Source: Notolepis coatsorum (Eukaryota > Chordata > Actinopteri > Aulopiformes > Paralepididae). From it: a stretch of DNA of 64,000 nt. The position numbers and the translations under genes were made by a program. The notes beneath the pieces were generated by a model. It searched no databases and was not told the DNA's origin. It saw only the letters and a program-made list of their open reading frames with translations. Within the stretch, counting starts at the first letter, position 1, and the number at the start of each line of letters is the position of its first letter. This document shows, piece after piece, positions 15,371-53,145 of this stretch. Location: positions 53,542,888 through 53,606,887 of the forward strand of contig OZ020589.1 of NCBI GenBank assembly GCA_963971535.1. The letters are read 5' to 3'.

Positions 15371-17485
15371 AGAAGGTTAGCCCTTTACTATCACACAACC
15401 CACGGCGATGCTCCTTCATTAGCATCATTAGCTCCGCTTCACACAGCGCATGAGCTAACCTGCTATCTGATTTTTACTAAGGAAAAAACACAGAATAGAG
15501 AGGGCTCTCTAAGAGCCCCGGTCCAACATACACATGTGCTTCTGTGGCCAGTCCAACCCAGTTGTAGGTCACATGACACACACAACCCATCATCACCTAC
15601 AAAAAATGGCAAAAACACTCTACAGAGGAACGCCGTTTTTCATAATGAGAGAATACATAATTCTCGATTAGTATCGGCCACAGGCCTTGCTAAGCACACA
15701 CGACAGCGACCAAACAATCTTTTCTTTTAGGAAAATAAAGTTTCTCCAGCAGTTTTTAGCACAACCTCAGCAATCAAGCTAAGGGTTACATCGCATCCCT
15801 ACCACACAAAAGACACAATGTAGTGCACAACATGTCTGATAGGAGGATGACAAAGTCCCCAGGGAACCGGGGGGAAACACAATCCTCTTATTTTACCCTT
15901 AATATGGCCAGTTAAAACAGGAAAACCTGTTAATATGTGAACACACTGTTCATTGTCATCACAGGCTGAGAAAAGAACATTCTTTTACTCACTTGTCACT
16001 AAGCATAGCTTCATAGGTTAGTTACCTTAGTTGTGAGTACACAGTACATATAAACACACATGATGTTTCTCACACAACAACCAGATCATTTTCACATCTG
16101 TAACAACCCGATTTGCACGGAGAAGCTAACTGCCAGTGACAAAGACAGTTCACACATAACTCGCGTCGTATCCTAAATGCATTGCAGCAACACACGTTTT
16201 GGGAAAACATCGTTATTCACAAAACATTTAGAAAGGCAAAACCAGAAGACGTGTTATAAGGTCTGGTCAAACCTTGTCCTACCCGGAACATAGATCAGCG
16301 AAGTGCAGTCTCAAGACACCGTAGAAACACAGCCATCCTGTGTTGTTCGATCCGGGCAGCGTCGCCGCTCTACCCGTCGCAACGGTCCCTTTGTTAACGC
16401 AATCCTTGCCGTCCTGGCTCAGGGCAGGGTCGACGAACATCCCCTGTCAAAGATGACGTCGTAGTCAAGAGTGTAAAACATGTTATAATCAAAGCACGTT
16501 CAACAGAGTAGCATTAAGCTAACGGCCGCTCCAACCGTCGGTCGCTATTACCCCTGCTCGCGAGACGCCGAGCGAACGGCGCACGCGACCAGAGGGGAGC
16601 TCACGGCGGCGCGCTGGCCTTGTCCGATAGCAGCAAGCTAACGTTTCCTAGTGATCACAACAGCTAGCGCCGCAGCTAACAGCTGACTGGCTAACAGTAG
16701 GCCCAACCTCTGTAGGCCACGCAGTGATCCCAGCAGGCTAACGCCGCAGCTAACAGCTGACTGGCTAACCGTAAGCTAAGCAGCTATCACCTGAACTTGT
16801 ACACAATGATATAACACTCACCCAGACAGGCCGTCGTTCTGAAACCCTCCTCACTTCTTAAGAGAAAAGAGAAACAAGATGTCAACACAGCTTTACAACG
16901 GTGATTTTACCAACACCCGACGGAATCAGCACAATACCAAACTGGCCTGTGTAGCTGACTTGAACATGGATCTTCCGCTATCGAACATCCATGCACATAT
17001 CTCCTCGTGAAGGAATACTCTCATTTGGATATGAAAGAAGGGGCTACACGGTGACAGGGAGATACCCACTCATCCAGAAAACACAGGGATCACCAGTGTT
17101 AATGGTCGCGGCCCACTAGTTAAAACTACAATGGTCTTCAGACCAAGGTCTTCTGTCGCCTAGGTGGCTGAACAAAGGACGCTAGCCTGGGGCCGGTTTT
17201 CATAAACATTGTCAAGTAGCCCCCATAGCACTAACAGACAAGTGAAGCCTGCCAGCAACAGTACTCACCCAACCTGAAACCCACCGCTTCTCACAACAGC
17301 GGCGCGTCCGACAGTTCAGCTGTGGCCTGAAAGGTTTCACCCCAACCAAACACAGCAAGGAACTGCAGTTGAGAAGCATGCAGCGGCGTGCTCCCAATAC
17401 GAAAACCGGTGGAGGGTTTTAGAATGATCACCATCTTCCAGACACTCCAGTGACGAAGACAACATTGCCGTATTTTCTCGAAAAT
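15370..17485. other. Unassigned region with a CpG-rich core
   Basis: No convincing gene. A 141-codon forward ORF (15305-15730) and a 61-codon reverse ORF (17212-17397) have no motif I recognise. 16340-16700 is rich in CpG (for example CGCGAGACGCCGAGCG) and is followed by a direct repeat of GCCGCAGCTAACAGCTGACT at about 16670 and 16745. It could be a promoter-type CpG island, an old LTR or the far flank of a larger element. I cannot choose between them. Confidence 0.4.
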
Positions 17486-18916
17486 TGTTGTGAAGGGCCA
17501 GATTAAACCGAATATATATATTTATTTATATATATATATTTAATTGTATTTGTATATTCTCTAATATTCCCTGATATCCCTTGTATATTCCTTGTACAAT
17601 ATGCATTGAATATTCATTCTAGCCTACTGAACATCCCATAATAGTCTCCATTCTACTATTGGTCGAGACCTTGGTGCCAGGCTGCCATACCCCTCAGACC
17701 CAGTTCAAACGTACCGCTCGACATGTACGAACAAGTCCTAGTTCCGCGTAGGAATTTGGCTACCGCACCACTAATGGGACTATTTGTTCATAGTGCGTAT
17801 ATATACTGCGCTACTAAAGTAGGACTTTCTTTTCAGTCCAGTTTCTTACCCTCCAATAGAGTCACAGACGTAAAGCCTCCCCGCGACGCCACGTGTGGGA
17901 GTAAGGCCAAGTTCGCCTACCATCGGTATTGAGACATCATGTATATTAATATTTGAATAGTCATATTTGGCACTATATCGTCGAGTTGGACGTAGTCTAT
18001 TAAGCTAATAATAGTCTGTTAATATATAGTGCTTCGTGCGGTGAGAATACTACCGTAGTCAGTACCCCATCGTTTCGGGCAGAGAACTGGCTGCTTACCC
18101 AGGGTGGTTGACCCTATGTGAAGCTGCACCCGAGGAGCCCCAGAGCCGACGAGCGAGTGGACCTGTATACCGGATTATTCTACCGACGACAGCCCGCCTT
18201 CCCAGGCACGGATTATGCTTTGGATACTTTGATTATTCCATGGATAAAGACCCCCGACACTGCCGTGTGTTGGAACCCCCCCCCTGGAGAGGACGCAAGG
18301 TGAGGAGACGCTCTGCAAGACGAGGTCTCTTCACGTCTCTCCCCCGTGGACCGGAGAGAGCCGGCCCACAAAGAGTCCACCTGCTTTCATCTGTGGTCCA
18401 AGGATCGCCGGCGCATTGAACGGCACTACAGTGGGTTCACCTGGGATACCCTTGGCCGGACGAGGCAGCTGGATTCTACCCCCCCCCCCTCCTACTCCTG
18501 TCGGCTTACAAGCGACCGGATTAACCCCCTCTAGTGTATCCAGCCTATAATCATTAAAGTATCATTGCTGTTATTCCTTAACTATTCCAGGTTGTATATT
18601 TACCACCTGCGCCTTCAGAGATTGGACATTCTCTATTGATATACCGACGAATACTCCTTGCCATAAAAGTGCATACTATTTCAATTCATAAATGTAATTA
18701 AGTGACTAAGTGCTTATTCTACACACCATCGCTGTGTAGGAAATAAAGACCTGTTTCTAATTCGTACATTTGTGTTGGATCCGTTTCATCTACGTGAGAG
18801 TGTTCATGATAATATATTTATGCCGTGTACTGGGTGGCCGAATATTAAGTACAAAGGTAGTGGTAGTAAGTATCATATCTAGTAATACAGTCAGGGAATT
18901 GTACCCCTCAGTTACA
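17486..18916 (+). repeat. 5' LTR of the BEL/Pao element
   Basis: Starts TGTTGTGAAGGGCC and ends CCTCAGTTACA, so it has TG..CA termini. It holds A/T-rich TATATATTTA runs near its start, a C-run (18480-18489), an ATTAAAGT signal near 18552 and an AATAAAGACC poly(A)-like signal near 18742. The promoter and R boundaries cannot be set from sequence alone. A 69-codon ORF in both LTR copies is identical because the LTRs are, and is not evidence of a gene. Confidence 0.95.
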
Positions 18917-18918
18917 AT

Positions 18919-18935
18919 TGGTCCTTCGAGCCGGA
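18919..18935 (+). promoter_or_regulatory. Primer-binding site, complementary to tRNA-Tyr
   Basis: TGGTCCTTCGAGCCGGA starts two bases after the 5' LTR. Its reverse complement, TCCGGCTCGAAGGACCA, equals the 3' end of vertebrate tRNA-Tyr as I remember it (T-stem end, acceptor strand, discriminator A and CCA). This is where minus-strand cDNA synthesis would start. Confidence 0.8.
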
Positions 18936-18960: not shown

Positions 18961-21900
18961 GTGTTATTAATATTGAAATGGCCTATGATGAACACTCCAC
19001 GAAACGATCCTCCTAACCAACGCCCGCAGCGCGAACGACGGCTCCCTCAGTACTTAGAGGCTTACGCTGTCAGTCAACAACCTAGTCTTCTACTAACAGT
19101 AAACGCGGTAAAACTAGAAAGTAAAAGTATGTCTAACCCCAACGCCCAGACTACCCCGACCATAGAGGCCCCTACGGGCTCTAATGTAACTGACCAAGTT
19201 CACGGTGGGGACCAGTGGGAACCAGACATGACTTCACACCCCGCCAGTACTGAAGAAGTAGTCCCCGATGAGTCCCGGGAGGAATACAACGCTACCGAGA
19301 GAGAACTCGGCACGGAAGAAGACGGGGAGAGCACCGTGGAGATAGAGCTCCAAGGCTCCGCAAGGAGTACCCCGAGGGAAGGCTCCCCTATACAACCGCC
19401 TTCTCCCAGCGAGGCAGAGAGGACCCTACAGCAGGCATTCCTCGTCAGCCTGAAAGCCTCTACTGAACGCGATAGACTCCAGGGTGAACGCGATCGATTG
19501 CAGCTACAGCAACGGAGCGAAGAAGAGCACATACGCCTGGAAATAAGACGCATTCAGATGGAAGAGAATGTGGCCCGAGACCGAGCAGACAGCCAGCGAG
19601 CAGCCGCTGGTGCTCTACGGGAAGCAGAGCGCGACAGACAGCAAGCGCAACTAATAGAACAGCTGATCAGACGGACAACACCCTCTCCCTCCGCCAGAGG
19701 CTCCAGGAACTCGTCTAGACACACCTCCAGGGCGGCATCCCCTAGCCGAGTAAACAACCCTGAACTTGACCAACAGACGAGGTCTATACCCCCCACAGAC
19801 CACCTCCCCCCACCGGTCCAAGCGAGACCTAGCAACCGGGAAGGAGCAGCATATCCTGTGGAGAGGCTAAACCAGAGACTACAAGCACTGGATGACCTAA
19901 CTGAAGACGAAGAGGAAGAGGAGGAGAACCACGCCCGAAGACAGCACAGTACTCTACCGGACCAGGAGGTCCGGTACAGCCCAGGCTATACTCCCGCGGA
20001 GCTGCGCTACAGACCCCCGACTCTATACACGGGTGAGCACGACGCACGACCCGCACCGAGGAACAGCACCTGGACAAGCGGGCCATGGTACACTGCCGGT
20101 ACCAGCCCATACCAAGGAGCGGGAGGAGACTCGCCTAGGAGGCCTCTCCCCCAACGCTCGCCGATGTATCCACAGTCAGCGTCATACATTGGCACGCCTA
20201 TGGTACCCGACTTCACCCAAGAGAACCGGGCCCAGTATACAGAACTCCGCATGTGTCTGGAGACCATGTTGGTGGATGTATTGGATGAACGCCACAAATA
20301 CGCCATCCTACTGCAGCACTTAAAGGTACCCCGCGCACATAATATAGCGCTCGCCTACGCGACTTCCACCACCCCATACACAGCAGCGCTGGTAGCATTG
20401 GACCAGAGGTATGGACGCATATGGGATTACGTGATCCAGGAGATCCGACACATCGACCGCTTACCCCCAGCAATAGACAATCGAGCACTGGACGACCTGT
20501 CCATCAGAGTGCAGTCCCTGGTAGGGATGTTGGGAGCGCAAAGAGAGAAGGGGAAGTATGAACTTTACGCCAACTCAAATGTGGAAAGGATTCTGGAGAA
20601 GCTGCCGCCCGCTCGTCAGGAGCGCTTTAGGCGGCAGAGGGACCACAGAAACCCGAATGGCCCCGAACCGAACCTCCTCGATCTAGCAGACTTCCTGGCG
20701 AGAGAAGTCAGCAGCCTACGGCTAGATACATTCGGACGGAGCACCCCTGGCTCCAGAGAAGGAACCAGACGACTAAATGATGGAAGAAGATCGGTGACTG
20801 TGATGCACCAATCGGAGTCAGTACCGAGCAGCAGGAGCCACAGTACCCCCTCCAGAACGGAGAAGTGGAAGATAGTGTGCCCCTACTGTGAGAAAGAACA
20901 CTGGCTAGCGCAATGTGACTCCTTCCCCAAGCTGAACGCGGAGGAAGCAGGTCAATGGATAAAGTCCAACAAGCGCTGTTTTCGCTGTGCGCGCTCACAC
21001 ATGGCAGCCGAATGCCGCTTAAAGAAAAGGTGCACCAAGTGCGATGGAGCCCATCTGGACATACTTCACGACAGTAACAGACGGCGCCCTTCACCTGCAC
21101 CATCCAGCCGCAAAGCGAGCGTCATGTACATCGATCCCGCCAGCAGCAGTGGAGCCCGAGTACTCCTAAAAGTAGTGCGTGTGACACTAAGCTACCAGAA
21201 TAAAGTCCTGGACACTTACGCCGTCCTCGATGACGGGTCAGAGAAGACCCTGCTGCTCGCCTCCGCTGCGGCCCAGCTAGGGCTGCGGGGAAGCGAAACC
21301 CAAATGACAATTCGGACAATAAGACGAGATTTGAAGACGATAAAGGGCGAGAATGTCTCATTCTCTATCGCAGCAAGCGGCCAGCCTGAGCGACGGTACC
21401 AGATTGCAGACGCTTTCACCAGCCAAGAAATAGGACTGTCGCGGTACACATACCCCGTCGCCAAGCTGATGGAGAAATATGCACATCTGCGCAAGTTACC
21501 GATCCCGCTCATAGACAATGCTATGCCGACCCTGTTGATAGGCTCCGACCATGCAGACCTCATTGTCCCGATAGACCGGGTTCATACCGGACCCCGAGGC
21601 TGCCCTGCAGCAGTCGAGACCCGTTTGGGATGGACTCTCCAAGGCCCGCTCGCCAAATCTCTCAACCGAAGTACAGCCACTAGATGTCTCCACTCCCGAG
21701 TCACAGAGGGAGAAACCGCACTCCTGCAACACGTAGAGCGGCTATGGAGCTTGGAACAAATGCCCTTTAAGAATGGAAAGAAAGACATTCGCTCTAAAGA
21801 TGACATTTACGCCATTCACCTCCTCGAGACAGGGACCAAGAGAGTCCCGGTCAACGGCGTGTTGAGATACGCCACGCCACTCCTGCGGCGACAAGGAATG

Positions 21901-24498
21901 CCTACTTTCCACGCCAAGACAGACGCCATAGAACGGTACCTGCTGAACACGGAGCGGCGCTTAGCCAAGAACCCCGTCCAAGAGAGTGTATACCGCGCTG
22001 AGATTGAGAAGCTCATCACAGCGGGACACGTCACAAAGATGGACATTAAAGAGGCTGACCAGACCACTGAATCGTGGTACGTGCCCCACCACAAGGTCCA
22101 TCACAATGGTAAAGACCGCATAGTATTTAACTGCAGCTACCAGATCGGATCCCAAAATCTGAATAAAGAGTTACTGCCCGGTCCCACACTCGGCCCCTCC
22201 CTACTCGGCGTTCTACTCCGCTTCCGCCAGGAAAAGGTGGCCATCAGCGGGGACATTAAAGGAATGTTCCTGCAGGTGAGATTAGTAGAGGCGGACAAGC
22301 CCCTGTTACGGTTCCTATGGAGAGAGAAGCCAGGAGATGAGCACCCAGCCATCTACCAATGGGAAGTCCTCCCCTTCGGAACGACGTGCAGCCCCTGCTG
22401 TGCGACATTTGCACTACAGAAACATGTAGCAGAGGACCCAGCAGCGGACGAAGAGGTCCGACACAGCGTAAAGAACAGCTTCTACGTAGACAACTGTCTA
22501 CAAAGCCTTTCAACCCAGGAAGAAGCCGAGGCTCTCCTGATTAAACTCCGCGCCTCATTGATCAAAGGCGGCTTTGATCTCAGGCAGTGGGCCAGCAGCG
22601 ATCCGCAAGTACTGCGCAGCCTCTCCTCCGAGGACAAGGCAGCCAGCAGCGAGACCTGGATGGCTACAATCCCGGGAGAAGCCCAGGAGATGACCCTGGG
22701 ATTGGTGTGGCGATTCAAAACAGATTCGCTTCACTACAGACACAAGCCCCTGACTACGGAGCAGGGAAGGCCGGCGGCGGCGCCGACCACCAGACGGAGT
22801 GTGTACACAACACTCGCCCGACAATATGACCCGCTAGGATGTATTCTACCGTACACCACCAGGGCAAAAATGATTGTACGAGCATTGTGGGACAAGGACC
22901 AGGGCTGGGACGACCCCATTCCCGCACACCTTGCATCCACCTGGAGAGAGTGGGAGATGGAGCTCCACTCACTCCCAGGCGTTAATATGCGCCGAAGCTA
23001 CTTCCCACCCATGGTGAGGCCAGAGACATGTAAAATGGACTTACACGTCTTCAGTGACGCCTCAGAGGTCGCATACGGATCAGTAGCCTACTTGCGGGCC
23101 CAAGACCAGGGGGGAGAGATCTACACAGCATTTGTCCTCGCCCGCTCGAGAATAGCCCCACGCAAGCAACAATCTATCCCACGTCTAGAGCTCTGCGCAG
23201 CCCTAGCCGGAGCGCACCTAGCCACGCTCATCCAACGTGAGCTCACCATACCGGTGTCTAGAACAATCCTGTGGTCAGATTTCACGACGGTACTCGCCTG
23301 GATCAAATCGGACTCATGCAAGTACAAAGTCTTCGTGGGAGTCAGAGTCACCGAGATTCAAGACTTAACCGAAGAGTTAACCGGAGAAACAGAGTGGCGC
23401 TACGTTGATACAAAACAGAACCCAGCTGACGTCATCACCCGGGGGATGCCCCTGGATGACCTCACCCGTCGCAATGTCTACAGTGACGGCCCCGCATTCC
23501 TAAGACTCCCGGAAGGACAGTGGCCCATGCCTATCCCGAGGGAAGCAAGTCCAGAGGAGGTGGAAATTAAGAAGTCTCTGTTCTGTGGATTGAGCACCGT
23601 AGCCTCCACCGACCCTAACATAAACGATTGCACGTCCATAGAGAGTGCACAACAAAGAACATTCCTGCGGTACCACCCGGAGTGCAAGTCCCCCGCTGAT
23701 ATGTCAGCGGCTGACTACGAGGAAGCAGAATTGCTTCTACTGCAGCGAGCCCAGAGAGACTCGTTCCCCGATGAATTGGCCTGTCTACAGGGAGGAAAGC
23801 CCGTCCCATCCGACAGCAGATTAATTCACCTGGCCCCCGAGAGCGACGCTCACACCCTCATCAGAGTGGGTGGTCGCCTACGCAGAGCCCCCAATCTACC
23901 GGATGACATTAAATACCCGATCGTATTGAACAGCCGACACAAGGTCACAGAGCTGATTATAAAGAAATACGATGAGGATGTACATCACGCAGGAGCAGAA
24001 ACAGTCCTCACGGAGATTGAGGGAGTATTGAACTCTAAGCCCCTCGGCTACGTCTCCAGTGATGTGGCGGATATCGACCCAGTTACCCCCAACACACTCC
24101 TGATGGGGCGGCTAGATCCTGCATTACCACAGACAATGTACCGGCCTGAAGAAGCGAACGGCCGACGAATGTGGAGGTACAGCCAAGTATTAGCCGACAA
24201 GTTTTGGAACAGTTTCCTACTGCACTACCTACCGTCTCTACAGACCCGCCAGAAGTGGGTAAAGGAGAGAGACAATTTGACAGAAGGAACAGTCGTCATG
24301 ATTATTGATCAATCACTGCCCAGAGCTATGTGGCCGGCCGGCCGCGTAAGCAAAGTGATCACCGGTGCCGACGGCAAGGTCCGAGCAGCTGAAGTGCTCG
24401 TCCAGGGTCGCACTTACACCCGTCCCGTGGCAAGGCTCATAGAACTGCCTCGACTCCCAGACACAATCGATGATGACCATGACCCTACAACCCTATGA
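18961..24498 (+). CDS. BEL/Pao gag-pol polyprotein lacking the integrase core
   Basis: 1845 codons. Residues 1-630: gag, with a charged Glu/Arg/Gln-rich coiled-coil stretch near 150-230. About 640-705: three zinc knuckles (CPYCEKEHWLAQC, CFRCARSHMAAEC, then a CTKC..H..H variant). About 750-850: aspartic protease with DDGS. About 1000-1200: RT, with catalytic Asp in SGDIKGMF (about 1096) and YVDN near 1176, where the second Asp is Asn. About 1360-1500: RNase H and connection (VFSDAS, PRLELCAA, WSD, NPADVITRG). About 1660-1685: start of the integrase zinc domain (DVHHAG). The frame then passes straight to TEIEGVLNSKPL and the C-terminal domain (KFWNSFLLHYLPSL, TRPVARLIELP). The DDE core is absent without a frameshift. 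The ATG at 18961 is the first in frame; later ATGs near 18985 and 19129 are possible starts. Confidence 0.93.
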   Translation: MLLILKWPMMNTPRNDPPNQRPQRERRLPQYLEAYAVSQQPSLLLTVNAVKLESKSMSNPNAQTTPTIEAPTGSNVTDQVHGGDQWEPDMTSHPASTEEVVPDESREEYNATERELGTEEDGESTVEIELQGSARSTPREGSPIQPPSPSEAERTLQQAFLVSLKASTERDRLQGERDRLQLQQRSEEEHIRLEIRRIQMEENVARDRADSQRAAAGALREAERDRQQAQLIEQLIRRTTPSPSARGSRNSSRHTSRAASPSRVNNPELDQQTRSIPPTDHLPPPVQARPSNREGAAYPVERLNQRLQALDDLTEDEEEEEENHARRQHSTLPDQEVRYSPGYTPAELRYRPPTLYTGEHDARPAPRNSTWTSGPWYTAGTSPYQGAGGDSPRRPLPQRSPMYPQSASYIGTPMVPDFTQENRAQYTELRMCLETMLVDVLDERHKYAILLQHLKVPRAHNIALAYATSTTPYTAALVALDQRYGRIWDYVIQEIRHIDRLPPAIDNRALDDLSIRVQSLVGMLGAQREKGKYELYANSNVERILEKLPPARQERFRRQRDHRNPNGPEPNLLDLADFLAREVSSLRLDTFGRSTPGSREGTRRLNDGRRSVTVMHQSESVPSSRSHSTPSRTEKWKIVCPYCEKEHWLAQCDSFPKLNAEEAGQWIKSNKRCFRCARSHMAAECRLKKRCTKCDGAHLDILHDSNRRRPSPAPSSRKASVMYIDPASSSGARVLLKVVRVTLSYQNKVLDTYAVLDDGSEKTLLLASAAAQLGLRGSETQMTIRTIRRDLKTIKGENVSFSIAASGQPERRYQIADAFTSQEIGLSRYTYPVAKLMEKYAHLRKLPIPLIDNAMPTLLIGSDHADLIVPIDRVHTGPRGCPAAVETRLGWTLQGPLAKSLNRSTATRCLHSRVTEGETALLQHVERLWSLEQMPFKNGKKDIRSKDDIYAIHLLETGTKRVPVNGVLRYATPLLRRQGMPTFHAKTDAIERYLLNTERRLAKNPVQESVYRAEIEKLITAGHVTKMDIKEADQTTESWYVPHHKVHHNGKDRIVFNCSYQIGSQNLNKELLPGPTLGPSLLGVLLRFRQEKVAISGDIKGMFLQVRLVEADKPLLRFLWREKPGDEHPAIYQWEVLPFGTTCSPCCATFALQKHVAEDPAADEEVRHSVKNSFYVDNCLQSLSTQEEAEALLIKLRASLIKGGFDLRQWASSDPQVLRSLSSEDKAASSETWMATIPGEAQEMTLGLVWRFKTDSLHYRHKPLTTEQGRPAAAPTTRRSVYTTLARQYDPLGCILPYTTRAKMIVRALWDKDQGWDDPIPAHLASTWREWEMELHSLPGVNMRRSYFPPMVRPETCKMDLHVFSDASEVAYGSVAYLRAQDQGGEIYTAFVLARSRIAPRKQQSIPRLELCAALAGAHLATLIQRELTIPVSRTILWSDFTTVLAWIKSDSCKYKVFVGVRVTEIQDLTEELTGETEWRYVDTKQNPADVITRGMPLDDLTRRNVYSDGPAFLRLPEGQWPMPIPREASPEEVEIKKSLFCGLSTVASTDPNINDCTSIESAQQRTFLRYHPECKSPADMSAADYEEAELLLLQRAQRDSFPDELACLQGGKPVPSDSRLIHLAPESDAHTLIRVGGRLRRAPNLPDDIKYPIVLNSRHKVTELIIKKYDEDVHHAGAETVLTEIEGVLNSKPLGYVSSDVADIDPVTPNTLLMGRLDPALPQTMYRPEEANGRRMWRYSQVLADKFWNSFLLHYLPSLQTRQKWVKERDNLTEGTVVMIIDQSLPRAMWPAGRVSKVITGADGKVRAAEVLVQGRTYTRPVARLIELPRLPDTIDDDHDPTTL

Positions 24499-24607: not shown

Positions 24608-26043
24608 TGTTGTGAAGGGCCAGATTAAACCGAATATATATATTTATTTATATATATATATTTAATTGTATTTGTATATTCTCTAATATTCCCTGATATC
24701 CCTTGTATATTCCTTGTACAATATGCATTGAATATTCATTCTAGCCTACTGAACATCCCATAATAGTCTCCATTCTACTATTGGTCGAGACCTTGGTGCC
24801 AGGCTGCCATACCCCTCAGACCCAGTTCAAACGTACCGCTCGACATGTACGAACAAGTCCTAGTTCCGCGTAGGAATTTGGCTACCGCACCACTAATGGG
24901 ACTATTTGTTCATAGTGCGTATATATACTGCGCTACTAAAGTAGGACTTTCTTTTCAGTCCAGTTTCTTACCCTCCAATAGAGTCACAGACGTAAAGCCT
25001 CCCCGCGACGCCACGTGTGGGAGTAAGGCCAAGTTCGCCTACCATCGGTATTGAGACATCGTGTATATTAATATTTGAATAGTCATATTTGGCACTATAT
25101 CGTCGAGTTGGACGTAGTCTATTAAGCTAATAATAGTCTGTTAATATATAGTGCTTCGTGCGGTGAGAATACTACCGTAGTCAGTACCCCATCGTTTCGG
25201 GCAGAGAACTGGCTGCTTACCCAGGGTGGTTGACCCTATGTGAAGCTGCACCCGAGGAGCCCCAGAGCCGACGAGCGAGTGGACCTGTATACCGGATTAT
25301 TCTACCGACGACAGCCCGCCTTCCCAGGCACGGATTATGCTTTGGATACTTTGATTATTCCATGGATAAAGACCCCCGACACTGCCGTGTGTTGGAACCC
25401 CCCCCCCTGGAGAGGACGCAAGGTGAGGAGACGCTCTGCAAGACGAGGTCTCTTCACGTCTCTCCCCCGTGGACCGGAGAGAGCCGGCCCACAAAGAGTC
25501 CACCTGCTTTCATCTGTGGTCCAAGGATCGCCGGCGCATTGAACGGCACTACAGTGGGTTCACCTGGGATACCCTTGGCCGGACGAGGCAGCTGGATTCT
25601 ACCCCCCCCCCCCCCCTCCTACTCCTGTCGGCTTACAAGCGACCGGATTAACCCCCTCTAGTGTATCCAGCCTATAATCATTAAAGTATCATTGCTGTTA
25701 TTCCTTAACTATTCCAGGTCGTATATTTACCACCTGCGCCTTCAGAGATTGGACATTCTCTATTGATATACCGACGAATACTCCTTGCCATAAAAGTGCA
25801 TACTATTTCAATTCATAAATGTAATTAAGTGACTAAGTGCTTATTCTACACACCATCGCTGTGTAGGAAATAAAGACCTGTTTCTAATTCGTACATTTGT
25901 GTTGGATCCGTTTCATCTACGTGAGAGTGTTCATGATAATATATTTATGCCGTGTACTGGGTGGCCGAATATTAAGTACAAAGGTAGTGGTAGTAAGTAT
26001 CATATCTAGTAATACAGTCAGGGAATTGTACCCCTCAGTTACA
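24608..26043 (+). repeat. 3' LTR of the BEL/Pao element
   Basis: Matches the 5' LTR throughout. The differences I found are A to G near 25062, T to C near 25718, and longer C runs near 25400 and 25605. C-run length is error-prone in both replication and sequencing. A true difference of about two in 1430 bases indicates a very recent insertion. Confidence 0.95.
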
Positions 26044-26048
26044 AAAAT

Positions 26049-26801: not shown

Positions 26802-27990
26802 GGCCGGCAGTGACTCAGGAGGTAGAGCGGTCGTCTGGTAATCGGAAGGTTGCCGGTTTGATTCATGTCGGAAGTGTCCTTGAGCAAGACACTTAACCCC
26901 TAACTGCTCCCGAGGAGCAGGTTGGCACCTTGCGCGGTCGCCTGTGCTGTCGTTGTGTGAACGTGTGAGTGAACGGGTGAATGTGTGAGTGAACGGGTGA
27001 ATGTGAGAGTGAGCGGGTGAATGTGAGAGTGAGCGGGTGAATGTGTGAGTGAGCGGGTGAATGTGAGAGTGAGCGGGTGAATGTGTGAGTGAACGGGTGA
27101 ATGTGTGAGTGAGCGGGTGAATGTGTGAGTGAGCGGGTGAATGTGTGAGTGAACGGGTGAATGTGTGAGTGAACGGGTGAATGTGTGAGTGAACGGGTGA
27201 ACGGGTGAGTGAACGGGTGAATGTGTGAGTGAACGGGTGAACGGGTGAGTGAACGGGTGAATGTGAGAGTGAACGGGTGAATGTGTGAGTGAGCGGGTGA
27301 ATGTGTGAGTGAGCGGGTGAACGTGTGAGTGAACGGGTGAATGTGAGAGTGAGCGGGTGAATGTGTGAGTGAGCGGGTGAATGTGTGAGTGAACGGGTGA
27401 ATGTGAGAGTGAGCGGGTGAATGTGAGAGTGAGCGGGTGAATGTGAGAGTGAGCGGGTGAATGTGAGAGTGAACGGGTGAATGTGAGAGTGAGCGGGTGA
27501 ATGTGTGAGTGAGCGGGTGAATGTGTGAGTGAACGGGTGAATGTGAGAGTGAGCGGGTGAATGTGAGAGTGAGCGGGTGAATGTGTGAGTGAGCGGGTGA
27601 ATGTGAGAGTGAGCGGGTGAATGTGTGAGTGAGCGGGTGAATGTGAGAGTGAACGGGTGAATGTGAGAGTGAACGGGTGAATGTGAGAGTGAGCGGGTGA
27701 ATGTGTGAGTGAACGGGTGAATGTGAGAGTGAGCGGGTGAATGTGAGAGTGAGCGGGTGAATGTGTGAGTGAACGGGTGAATGTGAGAGTGAGCGGGTGA
27801 ATGTGAGAGTGAGCGGGTGAATGTGTGAGTGAACGGGTGAATGTGAGAGTGAGCGGGTGAATGTGAGAGTGAGCGGGTGAATGTGAGAGTGAACAGGTGA
27901 ATGTGTGAGTGAACGGGTGAATGTGAGGCACGAGCTGTAAAGTGCTTTGGATAAAGGGGCTATAATTATAAATGCACCATTTATCATTTA
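26802..27990 (+). mobile_element. tRNA-derived SINE expanded from within
   Basis: The head has an A-box-like stretch (CTCAGGAGGTAGAGCGGTCG) and a B-box-like stretch (GGTTGCCGGTTTGATTC). The body has GTGTCCTTGAGCAAGACACT and TAACCCCTAACTGCTCCCG, phrases common in fish SINEs. The tail, GCTGTAAAGTGCTTTGGATA up to CACCATTTATCATTT, is found at 27931-27990. In ordinary copies, as I know them, the body and tail are separated by one or two GTGAATGGGTGAATG motifs. Here that spot is a roughly 970-bp array. Confidence 0.8.
26956..27925. repeat. 20-bp minisatellite inside the SINE
   Basis: About 48 copies of GTGAGTGAACGGGTGAATGT with variants (GAGCGGG, GTGAGAGT, one GAACAGG). The period stays exactly 20 bp, and 20 is not a multiple of three. 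The reverse-strand frames nevertheless stay open for over 340 codons (Ser/His/Pro/Thr/Leu repeats), because the unit holds no reverse-strand stop. Confidence 0.97.
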
Positions 27991-28157: not shown

Positions 28158-30050
28158 ATGACTCACATAGCCTGTGGCAGGGACCACACACCAGGGACTA
28201 CACACCAGGGACTACACACCAGGGACTACACACCAGGGACTACACACCAGGGACTACACACCACACAGCCTGTGGCAGGGACTACACACCAGGGACTACA
28301 CACCAGGGACTACACACCAGGGACTACACACCAGGGACTACACACCAGGGACTACACACCACACAGCCTGTGGCAGGGACTACACACCAGGGACTACACA
28401 CCAGGGACTACACACCAGGGACTACACACCAGGGACTACACACCAGGGACTACACACCACACAGCCTGTGGCAGGGACTACACACCAGGGACTACACACC
28501 AGGGACTACACACCACATAGCCTGTGGCAGGGACTACACACCACATAGCCTGTGGCAGGGACTACACACCAGGGACTACACACCACATAGCCTGTGGCAG
28601 GGACTACACACCACACAGCCTGTGGCAGGGACTACACACCAGGGACTACACACCAGGGACTACACACCACATAGCCTGTGGCAGGGACTACACACCACAC
28701 AGCCTGTGGCAGGGACTACACACCAGGGACTACACACCAGGGACTACACACCACATAGCCTGTGGCAGGGACTACACACCAGGGACTACACACCAGGGAC
28801 TACACACCACATAGCCTGTGGCAGGGACTACACACCAGGGACTACACACCAGGGACTACACACCACATAGCCTGTGGCAGGGACTACACACCAGGGACTA
28901 CACACCACATAGCCTGTGGCAGGGACTACACACCAGGGACTACACACCACATAGCCTGTGGCAGGGACTACACACCAGGGACTACACACCAGGGACTACA
29001 CACCACATAGCCTGTGGCAGGGACTACACACCACACAGCCTGTGGCAGGGACTACACACCAGGGACTACACACCACATAGCCTGTGGCAGGGACTACACA
29101 CCAGGGACTACACACCACATAGCCTGTGGCAGGGACTACACACCAGGGACTACACACCACATAGCCTGTGGCAGGGACTACACACCAGGGACTACACACC
29201 ACATAGCCTGTGGCAGGGACTACACACCAGGGACTACACACCACATAGCCTGTGGCAGGGACTACACACCAGGGACTACACACCAGGGACTACACACCAG
29301 GGACTACACACCACACAGCCTGTGGCAGGGACTACACACCAGGGACTACACACCAGGGACTACACACCAGGGACTACACACCACACAGCCTGTGGCAGGG
29401 ACTACACACCAGGGACTACACACCACACAGCCTGTGGCAGGGACTACACACCAGGGACTACACACCAGGGACTACTCACCAGGGACTACACACCAGGGAC
29501 TACACACCAGGGACTACACACCAGGGACTACACACCAGGGACTACACACCAGGGACTACACACCACATAGCCTGTGGCAGGGACTACACACCAGGGACTA
29601 CACACCAGGGACTACACACCACATAGCCTGTGGCAGGGACTACACACCACATAGCCTGTGGCAGGGACTACACACCAGGGACTACACACCACATAGCCTG
29701 TGGCAGGGACTACACACCAGGGACTACACACCAGGGACTACACACCACATAACCTGTGGCAGGGACTACACACCAGGGACTACACACCACATAGCCTGTG
29801 GCAGGGACTACACACCAGGGACTACACACCAGGGACTACACACCACATAGCCTGTGGCATGGACTACACACCAGGGACTACACACCACATAGCCTGTGGC
29901 AGGGACTACACACCAGGGACTACACACCAGGGACTACACACCAGGGACTACACACCACATAGCCTGTGGCAGGGACTACACACCAGGGACTACACACCAG
30001 GGACTACACACCAGGGACTACACACCAGGGACTACACACCACACACACGA
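28158..30050. repeat. 14-bp minisatellite with two monomer types
   Basis: About 135 monomers of 14 bp. Type A is CAGGGACTACACAC. Type B is CACATAGCCTGTGG or CACACAGCCTGTGG. B units occur singly between runs of one to eight A units, giving an irregular higher-order pattern. Forward and reverse frames stay open (Thr/His/Gly/Gln/Leu readings) as a by-product. Confidence 0.97.
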
Positions 30051-30899: not shown

Positions 30900-31490
30900 A
30901 GAGTCAGACCACCACCACCTAGACCTGTCAGACCACCACCACCACCACCTAGACCTGTCAGACCACCACCACCACCACCTAGACCTGTCAGACCACCACC
31001 ACCACCACCTAGACCTGTCAGACCACCACCACCTAGACCTGTCAGACCACCACCACCACCACCTAGACCTGTCAGACCACCACCACCACCACCTAGACCT
31101 GTCAGACCACCACCACCACCACCTAGACCTGTCAGACCACCACCACCACCACCACCTAGACCTGTCAGACCACCACCACCACCACCACCACCTAGACCTG
31201 TCAGACCACCACCACCACCACCTAGACCTGTCAGACCACCACCACCACCACCTAGACCTGTCAGACCACCACCACCACCACCTAGACCTGTCAGACCACC
31301 ACCACCACCACCTAGACCTGTCAGACCACCACCACCACCAACTAGACCTGTCAGACCACCACCACCACCTAGACCTGTCAGACCACCACCACCACCACCT
31401 AGACCTGTCAGACCACCACCACCACCACCTAGACCTGTCAGACCACCACCACCTAGACCTGTCAGACCACCACCACCACCACCTAGACCT
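30900..31490. repeat. CCA-type minisatellite, first phase
   Basis: About 20 copies of CACCTAGACCTGTCAGACCA with a variable number of CCA triplets, so unit length varies from about 24 to 36 bp in steps of three. Because of those steps one forward frame reads a Pro/Arg/Val repeat without stops, and the reverse frame reads Gly/Leu/Thr or Trp/Ser/Asp/Arg repeats. No flanking exon structure supports coding. Confidence 0.95.
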
Positions 31491-32335
31491 GTCACAGAGG
31501 TCTTTATTCAGACCACCACCACCACCACCTAGACCTGTCACAGAGGTCTTTATTCAGACCACCACCACCACCACCTAGACCTGTCACAGAGGTCTTTATT
31601 CAGACCACCACCACCACCACCTAGACCTGTCACAGAGGTCTTTATTCAGACCACCACCACCACCACCTAGACCTGTCGCAGAGGTCTTTATTCACACCAC
31701 CACCACCACCACCTAGACCTGTCACAGAGGTCTTTATTCAGACCACCACCACCACCACCTAGACCTGTCACAGATGTCTTTATTCAGACCACCACCACCA
31801 CCACCTAGACCTGTCGCAGAGGTCTTTATTCAGACCACCACCACCTAGACTTGTCACAGAGGTCTTTATTCAGACCACCACCACCACCTAGACCTGTCAC
31901 AGAGGTCTTTATTCAGACCACCACCACCACCACCTAGACCTGTCGCAGAGGTCTTTATTCAGACCACCACCACCACCACCTAGACCTGTCACAGAGGTCT
32001 TTATTCAGACCACCACCACCACCACCTAGACCTGTCACAGAGGTCTTTATTCAGACCACCACCACCACCACCTAGACCTGTCACAGAGGTCTTTATTCAG
32101 ACCACCACCACCACCACCTAGACCTGTCACAGAGGTCTTTATTCAGACCACCACCACCACCACCACCTAGACCTGTCACAGAGGTCTTTATTCAGACGAC
32201 CACCACCACCACCTAGACCTGTCACAGAGGTCTTTATTCAGACCACCACCACCACCACCTAGACCTGTCACAGAGGTCTTTATTCAGACCACCACCACCA
32301 CCACCTAGACCTGTCACAGAGGTCTTTATTCGGCA
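31490..32335. repeat. CCA-type minisatellite, second phase
   Basis: About 18 copies of a longer unit, roughly 46 bp. It is the first-phase unit with CAGAGGTCTTTATTCAG inserted after CCTGTCA. On the minus strand every unit carries AATAAA, so the array is a row of poly(A) hexamers. The insertion breaks the open frame. Confidence 0.95.
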
Positions 32336-50850: not shown

Positions 50851-52022
50851 CTCTGACCTCTCCCTCTGACCAGGGGCAAGGCCATGTTCTCCTCTGACCA
50901 GGAGCAAGGCCATGTTCTCCTCTGATCAGGAGCAAGGCCATGTTCTCTGACCAGGAGCAAGGCCATGTTCTCTGACCAGGAGCAAGGCCATGTTCTCCTC
51001 TGACCAGGAGCAAGGCCATGTTCTCCTCTGACCAGGAGCAAGGCCATGTTCTCCTCTGACCAGGAGCAAGGCCATGTTCTCCTCTGACCAGGAGCAAGGC
51101 CATGTTCTCCTCTGACCAGGAGCAAGGCCATGTTCTCTGACCAGGAGCAAGGCCATGTTCTCCTCTGACCAGGAGCAAGGCCATGTTCTCCTCTGACCAG
51201 GAGCAAGGCCATGTTCTCCTCTGACCAGGAGCAAGGCCATGTTCTCCTCTGACCAGGAGCAAGGCCATGTTCTCCTACTGACCAGGAGCAAGGCCATGTT
51301 CTCTGACCAGGAGCAAGGCCATGTTCTCTGACCAGGAGCAAGGCCATGTTCTCCTCTGACCAGGAGCAAGGCCATGTTCTCTGACCAGGAGCAAGGCCAT
51401 GTTCTCTGACCAGGAGCAAGGCCATGTTCTCCTCTGACCAGGAGCAAGGCCATGTTCTCCTACTGACCAGGAGCAAGGCCATGTTCTCTGACAGGAGCAA
51501 GGCCATGTTCTCCTCTGACCAGGAGCAAGGCCATGTTCTCTGACCAGGAACAAGGCCATGTTCTCCTCTGACCAGGAGCAAGGCCATGTTCTCCTACTGA
51601 CCAGGAGCAAGGCCATGTTCTCTGACCAGGAGCAAGGCCATGTTCTCTGACCAGGAGCAAGGCCATGTTCTCCTCTGACCAGGAGCAAGGCCATGTTCTC
51701 TGACCAGGAGCAAGGCCATGTTCTCCTCTGACCAGGAGCAAGGTCATGTTCTCCTCTGACCAGGAGCAAGGCCATGTTCTCTGACCAGGAACAAGGCCAT
51801 GTTCTCCTCTGACCAGGAGCAAGGCCATGTTCTCCTACTGACCAGGAGCAAGGCCATGTTCTCTGACCAGGAGCAAGGCCATGTTCTCTGACCAGGAGCA
51901 AGGCCATGTTCTCCTCTGACCAGGAGCAAGGCCATGTTCTCTGACCAGGAGCAAGGCCATGTTCTCTGACCAGGAGCAAGGCCATGTTCTCCTCTGACCA
52001 GGAGCAAGGACATGTTCTCCTA
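50851..52022. repeat. Minisatellite, 27/30/31-bp unit
   Basis: About 40 copies of GACCAGGAGCAAGGCCATGT plus TCTCT, with optional CCT or CCTA additions that set the three unit lengths. Reverse frames stay open (Ala/Leu/Val/Arg/Gly/Glu/His and Trp/Ser/Pro/Cys readings) and are artefacts. The first unit overlaps the right TSD of the hAT-like element. Confidence 0.97.
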
Positions 52023-52029
52023 CCCTCTG

Positions 52030-53145
52030 ACCAGGAGGACCGCTGGGCTCCAGGACACAGGAGGACCGCTGGGCTGCAGGACACAGGAGGACCGCTGGGC
52101 TGCAGACAGTACACAGGAGGACCGCTGGGCTGCAGGACACAGGAGGACTGCTGGGCTGCATACAGTACACAGGAGGACCGCTGGGCTGCAGGACACAGGA
52201 GGACCGCTGGGCTGCAGGACACAGGAGGACCGCTGGGCTGCAGGACACAGGAGGACCGCTGGGCTGCAGGGCACAGGAGGACCGCTGGGCTGCAGGACAC
52301 AGGAGGACCGCTGGGCTGCAGGACACAGGAGGACCGCTGGGCTGCAGGACACAGGAGGACCGCTGGGCTGCAGGACACAGGAGGACCGCTGGGCTGCAGA
52401 CAGGACACAGGAGGACCGCTGGGCTGCAGGACACAGGAGGACCGCTGGGCTGCAGGACACAGGAGGACCGCTGGGCTGCAGGACACAGGAGGACCGCTGG
52501 GCTCCAGGACACAGGAGGACCGCTGGGCTGCAGGACACAGGAGGACCGCTGGGCTGCAGGACACAGGAGGACCGCTGGGCTGCAGGACACAGGAGGACCG
52601 CTGGGCTGCAGGACACAGGAGGACCGCTGGGCTGCAGGACACAGGAGGACCGCTGGGCTGCAGGACACAGGAGGACCGCTGGGCTGCAGGACACATGAGG
52701 ACCGCTGGGCTGCAGGACACAGGAGGACCGCTGGGCTGCAGTACACAGGAGGACCGCTGGGCTGCAGACAGGACACAGGAGGACCGCTGGGCTGCAGGAC
52801 ACAGGAGGACCGCTGGGCTGCAGGACACAGGAGGACCGCTGGGCTCCAGGACACAGGAGGACCGCTGGGCTGCAGGACACAGGAGGACCGCTGGGCTGCA
52901 GGACACAGGAGGACCGCTGGGCTGCAGGACACAGGAGGACCGCTGGGCTGCAGGACACAGGAGGACCGCTGGGCTGCAGTACACAGAAGGACCGCTGGGC
53001 TGCAGGACACAGGAGGACCGCTGGGCTGCAGGACACAGGAGGACCGCTGGGCTGCAGTACACAGGAGGACCGCTGGGCTGCAGGACACAGGAGGACCGCT
53101 GGGCTGCAGGACACAGGAGGACCGCTGGGCTGCAGGATACAGGAG
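52030..53145. repeat. Minisatellite, 26-bp unit
   Basis: About 42 copies of a unit containing AGGACCGCTGGGCTGCAGGA and CACAGG. A few copies have an inserted CAGA or ATACAGT, and single-base variants occur. Long ORFs on both strands (up to about 595 codons, some spanning the neighbouring array) follow from the absence of stops in the unit. Confidence 0.97.

Follow-up and report, generated by a model that had tools for sequence, protein, structure and literature searches.

Sequence between direct repeats is lost from retroviral vectors by template switching, in which the minus strand jumps to the upstream repeat, and long repeats of less than 82% similarity give under 1% deletion (PMC3187697, in the part of its text available). 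Defective endogenous retroviruses (ERVs) complemented in trans are a second described system, for which the accessible portion of PMC10924933 names bovine ERVK[2-1-LTR], ETn complemented by MusD, and IAP I-delta-1 complemented by IAP. Among BEL/Pao elements, Sinbad has a DSG protease and a YVDD reverse transcriptase, according to the available sections of PMC554778.

Here we analyzed a BEL/Pao element of Notolepis coatsorum that has lost the catalytic core of its integrase. As in the retroviral vectors of PMC3187697 (same portion of text), one repeat and everything between the repeats are gone, and the kind of event is already known. Unlike the vector case, the BEL/Pao case is natural, its repeats are both short and imperfect (equal at 12 of 16 bases), 208 places are affected, and the crossovers often overshoot. 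The core-less copies resemble the trans-complemented ERVs in that defective copies would be inserted by the proteins of competent ones; the accessible portion of PMC10924933 describes those ERVs as defective lineages, whereas the BEL/Pao copies show no lineage and have the integrase core as their sole loss. The bovine ERVK is the nearest relative of the idea put forward in an earlier note on this DNA, that the element represents one integrase-dependent subfamily. A literature search covering integrase-less and BEL deletion families, template-switch deletions in LTR elements, and recurrent ERV deletions showed no report of the 594-bp deletion among the entries listed, which does not prove that none exists. 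Our analyses indicate that the core-less copies probably arise when template switching recurs while core-bearing RNA is being reverse-transcribed, with the products inserted by the integrase of the parents.

The window, that is, the whole stretch of 64,000 nucleotides that was analyzed (contig OZ020589.1, positions 53,542,888 to 53,606,887), holds the element in plus orientation between AAAAT flanks. Its parts, in window positions, are:

17481..17485, no strand: left target-site duplication AAAAT, 5 of 5 bases equal to the right side
17486..18916, plus strand: 5' LTR, TGTTGT...GTTACA
18919..18935, plus strand: probable primer binding site TGGTCCTTCGAGCCGGA, 2 bases past the LTR, its role inferred from position
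18961..24498, plus strand: gag-pol in a single open frame, 1845 codons from GTG; first in-frame ATG at 18985
20878..21069, plus strand: Gag triple Cys-His box (CX2CX4HX4C, CX2CX4HX4C, CX2CX3HX4H)
21214..21249, plus strand: protease motif TYAVLDDGSEKT, a DDG variant
22210..22581, plus strand: reverse transcriptase RVT_1 (Pfam), active-site motif YVDN at 22483
22789..23280, plus strand: Peptidase_A17 (Pao) domain (Pfam), RNase H motif DAS at 23056
23926..24000, plus strand: integrase N-terminal remnant, zinc finger HH present and CC absent
23998..24018, plus strand: deletion junction, form A, GAAACAGTCCTCACGGAGATT, 594 bp gone relative to core-bearing copies
24003..24018, plus strand: single repeat left at the junction, AGTCCTCACGGAGATT
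24169..24444, plus strand: DUF5641, the integrase C-terminal region (Pfam)
24608..26043, plus strand: 3' LTR
26044..26048, no strand: right target-site duplication AAAAT

Alignment of the window integrase with that of a core-bearing family member and with five BEL elements belonging to other families of this genome revealed that 198 consecutive residues (594 bp) are missing. Specifically, DVHHAGAE is joined directly to TVLTEIEGVLNSKPL, and the junction translates in the window frame as DVHHAGAETVLTEIEGVLNSKPL. The missing block includes the zinc-finger CxxC and the catalytic D, D, and E, for which the core-bearing copy has a D-to-D distance of 62 and a D-to-E distance of 49. Pfam matched DUF5641 in both the window and a core-bearing copy, and Integrase_H2C2 in the latter alone. 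The rve model PF00665 was matched in neither; because the core-bearing copy also goes unreported for PF00665, its absence from the window proves nothing alone. A PDB search with the integrase of the core-bearing copy as query gave 0 matches, and phage records gave no match. The alignment, the Pfam matches, and the frame at 18961 to 24498 bear out the earlier note in its claim of an 1845-codon frame from which the integrase core is gone with the rest left in one frame; the LTRs that it had called near-identical are indeed so, being 2 substitutions and 2 indels apart over about 1431 bp.

The window copy contains Pao-type pol domains (RVT_1, Peptidase_A17, and DUF5641), a Gag triple Cys-His box with the motif given in the available sections of PMC554778, and two LTRs with a short target duplication. 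The integrase HHCC and DD(49)E are absent from it and present in a core-bearing member of its family. Thus, it is a deleted member of BEL/Pao that has lost one defining part. The family shares with Sinbad, as covered by those sections, the triple Cys-His box, the Pao peptidase domain, and, in core-bearing copies, D(62)D(49)E; it differs from Sinbad in having DDG and YVDN, and the window copy differs further in lacking the core. YVDN replaces YVDD at the reverse transcriptase active site in 21 of 21 core-less and 9 of 10 core-bearing copies, and the protease is DDG in 21 of 21 and 7 of 10, respectively. The same sections of PMC554778 leave the function of YVDN open and take DDG as inactivating. 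Given the thousands of places and the near-identical LTR pairs, the sequences suggest that both variants work in vivo. Long tandem arrays of short units surround the element in the window (2537-10637, 26957-27925, 28178-30041, 31462-32331, and 50863-53145).

A junction that is unique or present only in the assembly was rejected on the count of the junction 26-mer, which has 170 genome matches at up to 1 mismatch (reversed pattern, 0). The 25-mer just upstream of the junction occurs at 6144 genome places at up to 2 mismatches (control, 0), the unequal mismatch thresholds making the ratio of the two counts a rough one. Among the 100 exact upstream-motif places listed (contig C1, 0.37 to 100.5 Mb), 7 have the 594-nt deletion. 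We examined 30 upstream-motif places and found the core-bearing spacing exactly in 23 and within 2 nt in 25, with core deletions in 5. The first 12 of these were fetched: 9 contain the core at exact spacing and 1 contains it with one extra nucleotide, at locus L048, the 594 deletion is present in a different form, and L046 has an 84-bp deletion. The best frame is stop-free in 8 of the 10 cores. The 18 further places, judged by spacing alone from reads downstream of the core, gave 14 exact spacings, 1 that is two nucleotides short, and 3 that are shorter by 132, 132, and 28. Other BEL families are abundant in the genome as well, with 150 scored PF18701 matches of 25124 candidates, and all 9 of the PF18701 loci fetched have a stop-free core. 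The loci L033 and L035 of these other families include an open copy with H in place of the first catalytic D (GVHYFGP) and a copy with WDR instead of WER at the E.

Core-bearing copies have GCAGAAAGAGTCTTCGCGGAAATC at the upstream end of the deleted segment and, 594 away, TAATGACAGTCCTCACGGAGATT at its downstream end, and the two ends hold a 16-nt imperfect repeat, AGTCTTCGCGGAAATC upstream and AGTCCTCACGGAGATT downstream, with 12 of 16 bases equal. The 594 deletion was found at 208 places, all in one register, in up to eight crossover forms. From 5' to 3', the counts are 3 for C, 27 for C', 24 for A', 88 (exact) for A, 55 for B, 3 for D, 6 for E, and 2 for F; adjacent forms such as E and F are one base apart and possibly point variants, and the number of independent origins is inexact. 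Forms A, B, and A' make up 167 of the 170 junction 26-mer matches. The crossover lies 5' of the repeat in 142 of the 208 (forms C, C', A', and A), in which the entire repeat and 0 to 7 bases past it derive from the downstream side. This one-sidedness is what a minus strand should produce if it copied through the downstream repeat, and some bases past it, and then jumped. From the recurrence and the one-sided crossovers, we infer that the deletion is made in reverse transcription; the slip would occur while the minus strand is being synthesized, and most core-less copies would be products of a single step. An origin in place within chromosomal DNA, whether through slippage or through single-strand annealing of the repeats, is highly improbable, as is an origin in the assembly. 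The target duplications and LTR identity would be compatible with such an event after insertion, but at least 208 places in one register, with nearly identical LTR pairs, would call for an extraordinary rate, and both the prevalence of crossovers on one side of the repeat and the unique flanks of the junction copies speak against it. An RNA helix that would bring the two repeats together was considered as the cause of the hotspot without result: it appeared in 680-nt folds of five copies and was lost in 1151-nt folds.

The 594-bp deletion is not the only one in the core. An in-frame 132-bp deletion between AAAGGAAGA repeats was found at 23 places, namely L100 (C1:11962084), L101 (C1:12094468), and 21 more, in two crossover forms of 13 (plus 1 variant) and 9, one of which overshoots by a base. 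An 84-bp deletion between TGTGGCGGA repeats was seen once, at L046. In the 594-, 132-, and 84-bp deletions alike, the repeat lies at both ends and one copy is left, and the 132-bp deletion behaves like the 594-bp one.

BEL/Pao elements are flanked by a short target duplication of characteristic length. Of 20 form-A copies fetched whole, a number that includes two in which the duplication was not assessable (L009 and L016), 17 have a perfect 5-bp duplication, all differing mutually and from that of the window; in L023, the duplication matches at 1 of 5 bases and the tip of the 3' LTR is missing. Between the two LTRs of each of the 17 copies, there are 0 to 5 differences over about 1430 sites. 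The different sites and 5-bp duplications therefore argue that an integrase inserted core-less DNA, and since the core is gone from the copy itself, this integrase must have been supplied from elsewhere, by a core-bearing element. Entry by another route, for example by cDNA recombining with resident LTRs to give tandem elements, is extremely improbable. Six pairs of junction places, each on one strand, 7083 to 7124 bases apart, and of a single form (three A and one each of A', C', and D), would fit this route and, judged by position, are probably tandem elements with a shared LTR. However, single insertions bounded by 5-bp duplications account for 17 of the 20 fetched copies, and a core-bearing pair 7691 apart was also listed, so tandems are not peculiar to core-less copies. 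The six pairs lie at C7:44.08M, C45:0.85M, C46:27.94M, C6:68.16M, C6:53.98M, and C49:2.30M.

We compared 20 form-A copies with 28 core-bearing ones over 1.18 kb downstream of the junction. All members of the core-bearing group lie within the initial 30 Mb of contig C1; it includes L070, L071, and L079, which have other core deletions, and L049 and L085, which have small indels, and 17 of the 28 had been read solely downstream of the core at the time of the test. The Snn, divergence, and private-variant tests left out the window copy and L002-L008, all of which had been picked by similarity, as well as L046 and L048. Form A was not separated from the core-bearing copies by nearest neighbor (Snn 0.474; shuffled, 0.506; p 0.67), and form B was not divergent from form A (net divergence -0.00006, p 0.50). 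When forms A, A', and B were pooled (n=32, the 3 A' and 9 B copies being the first listed, on C1 and C4), mild clustering against the 28 was evident (Snn 0.650; shuffled, 0.493; p 0.0155). The net divergence of A, at 0.00127, and that of the pool, at 0.00145, were higher than in any of the 2000 shuffles. Older copies in the core-bearing sample may be the cause of this clustering. In equal-size draws, the nearest neighbor of a form-A copy was also form A in 0.61 upstream and 0.74 downstream.

Form-A copy L015 is identical over about 1180 bp to L039, in which the core was read, and form-B copy L098 is identical over about 1180 bp to L082, in which the core was inferred from spacing. Two variants occur in at least two core-less copies and in none of the other group (mean over shuffles 4.2, sd 3.8), compared with 34 found in both groups; with three outliers dropped, there are 6 private variants versus 4.1 (p 0.25). 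Reduced upstream diversity beside the junction was not found in core-less copies.

These data bear on an alternative, an amended form of the view in the earlier note, that we regard as unlikely: that one or a few core-less lineages have been transcribed, packaged, and inserted in trans by integrase from core-bearing particles, and that recombination with core-bearing RNA at every cycle has erased their shared ancestry and shifted the crossover. The different sites, 5-bp duplications, and near-identical LTRs would all be expected, as would the predominance of form A (88 of 208) and the mild pooled clustering. The core-less copies are mosaics, which also agrees with it, and their share is above the per-cycle expectation for such a repeat that can be drawn from the available text of PMC3187697. 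In cattle, defective ERVK copies outnumber competent ones and are supposedly trans-complemented (PMC10924933, accessible portion). Against it, two downstream haplotypes that are distinct from 24028 on (24028-24060), about ten bases off the junction, both occur in form A, just as in core-bearing copies, and private variants are not in excess. In addition, the most similar pair among 21 core-less copies has 19 differences over 5493 sites, above the differences within LTR pairs; the sample therefore contains no siblings.

The many forms, the lack of nearest-neighbor separation for form A, the identical downstream sequence, and the absence of a private-variant excess favor deletion that is made afresh, repeatedly. 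In the proposed mechanism, the parent would be an abundant core-bearing BEL/Pao family and the window copy a recent insertion. While copying core-bearing RNA, the minus strand would complete the downstream repeat AGTCCTCACGGAGATT (codons of TVLTEI) and then jump 594 nt to the upstream repeat AGTCTTCGCGGAAATC (RVFAEI), an in-frame loss of the integrase core. The resulting cDNA would then be inserted by integrase made from core-bearing RNA, giving the 5-bp duplication. The slip would recur, each core-less insertion possibly coming fresh from an intact parent and not from one core-less master.

Many sites with target duplications were found, as for a mobilized subfamily; in place of a single junction inherited by descent, there are up to eight forms in one register. 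The single integrase-dependent subfamily proposed earlier is therefore not borne out by the crossover forms, the Snn result, the identical core-bearing copies, and the private variants. The same note held that the element had moved with its deletion on the integrase of a full copy: the integrase of a core-bearing element is upheld by the many sites, the duplications, and the relatives, but movement while already carrying the deletion is not supported. It had also proposed a search for the junction at different flanks and for a core-bearing relative, and both were found; because the deletion can recur, a shared junction with different flanks fails to discriminate. A junction common to many differently flanked copies does not prove a mobilized deletion subfamily. 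The window element acts like a helper-dependent element, and its membership in a mobilized nonautonomous subfamily is not supported.

Given that the repeat is both short and imperfect, core-less copies make up a large proportion (208 versus 6144, or 7 among the 100 exact-motif places listed). This proportion could reflect some onward spread, and onward mobilization with recombination is possible. Specifically, core-less copies might be a standing by-product at a few per cent of insertions, their RNA repackaged and reinserted by the integrase of the parents so that their share rises with each cycle, a scenario that we hold to be rather doubtful. If it is true, self-generated, recombining parasites that supply gag-pol and lack integrase could drag the family down, and truncated integrase in mixed particles would be a possible brake. 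How much a family loses through its own copying errors, and whether such losses feed on intact copies, become testable questions. The 208 places provide a natural map of template switching by a BEL/Pao reverse transcriptase, and the 132-bp deletion, at 23 places, provides a weaker second hotspot as an internal comparison.

We also considered coding constraint. Over 21 core-less copies, pN/pS is 0.37 for the full frame; the integrase remnants upstream and downstream of the junction give 0.22 and 0.15. The open frame and the value of 0.37 were rejected as proof of a subfamily, since core-bearing copies are equally constrained in the one region compared, the downstream integrase remnant (0.25 for core-less versus 0.22 for core-bearing copies). 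A remnant that is not relaxed is expected of core-less copies freshly derived from core-bearing ones. In-frame stops are absent from the aligned part of 13 of the 20 fetched core-less copies; this is no demonstration that the encoded proteins are used. The open frame is inherited from the parents, given the similar pN/pS of the downstream remnant in the two groups. Between RNase H and integrase, window positions 23445-23624 are much more divergent among copies and occur as two or more haplotypes.
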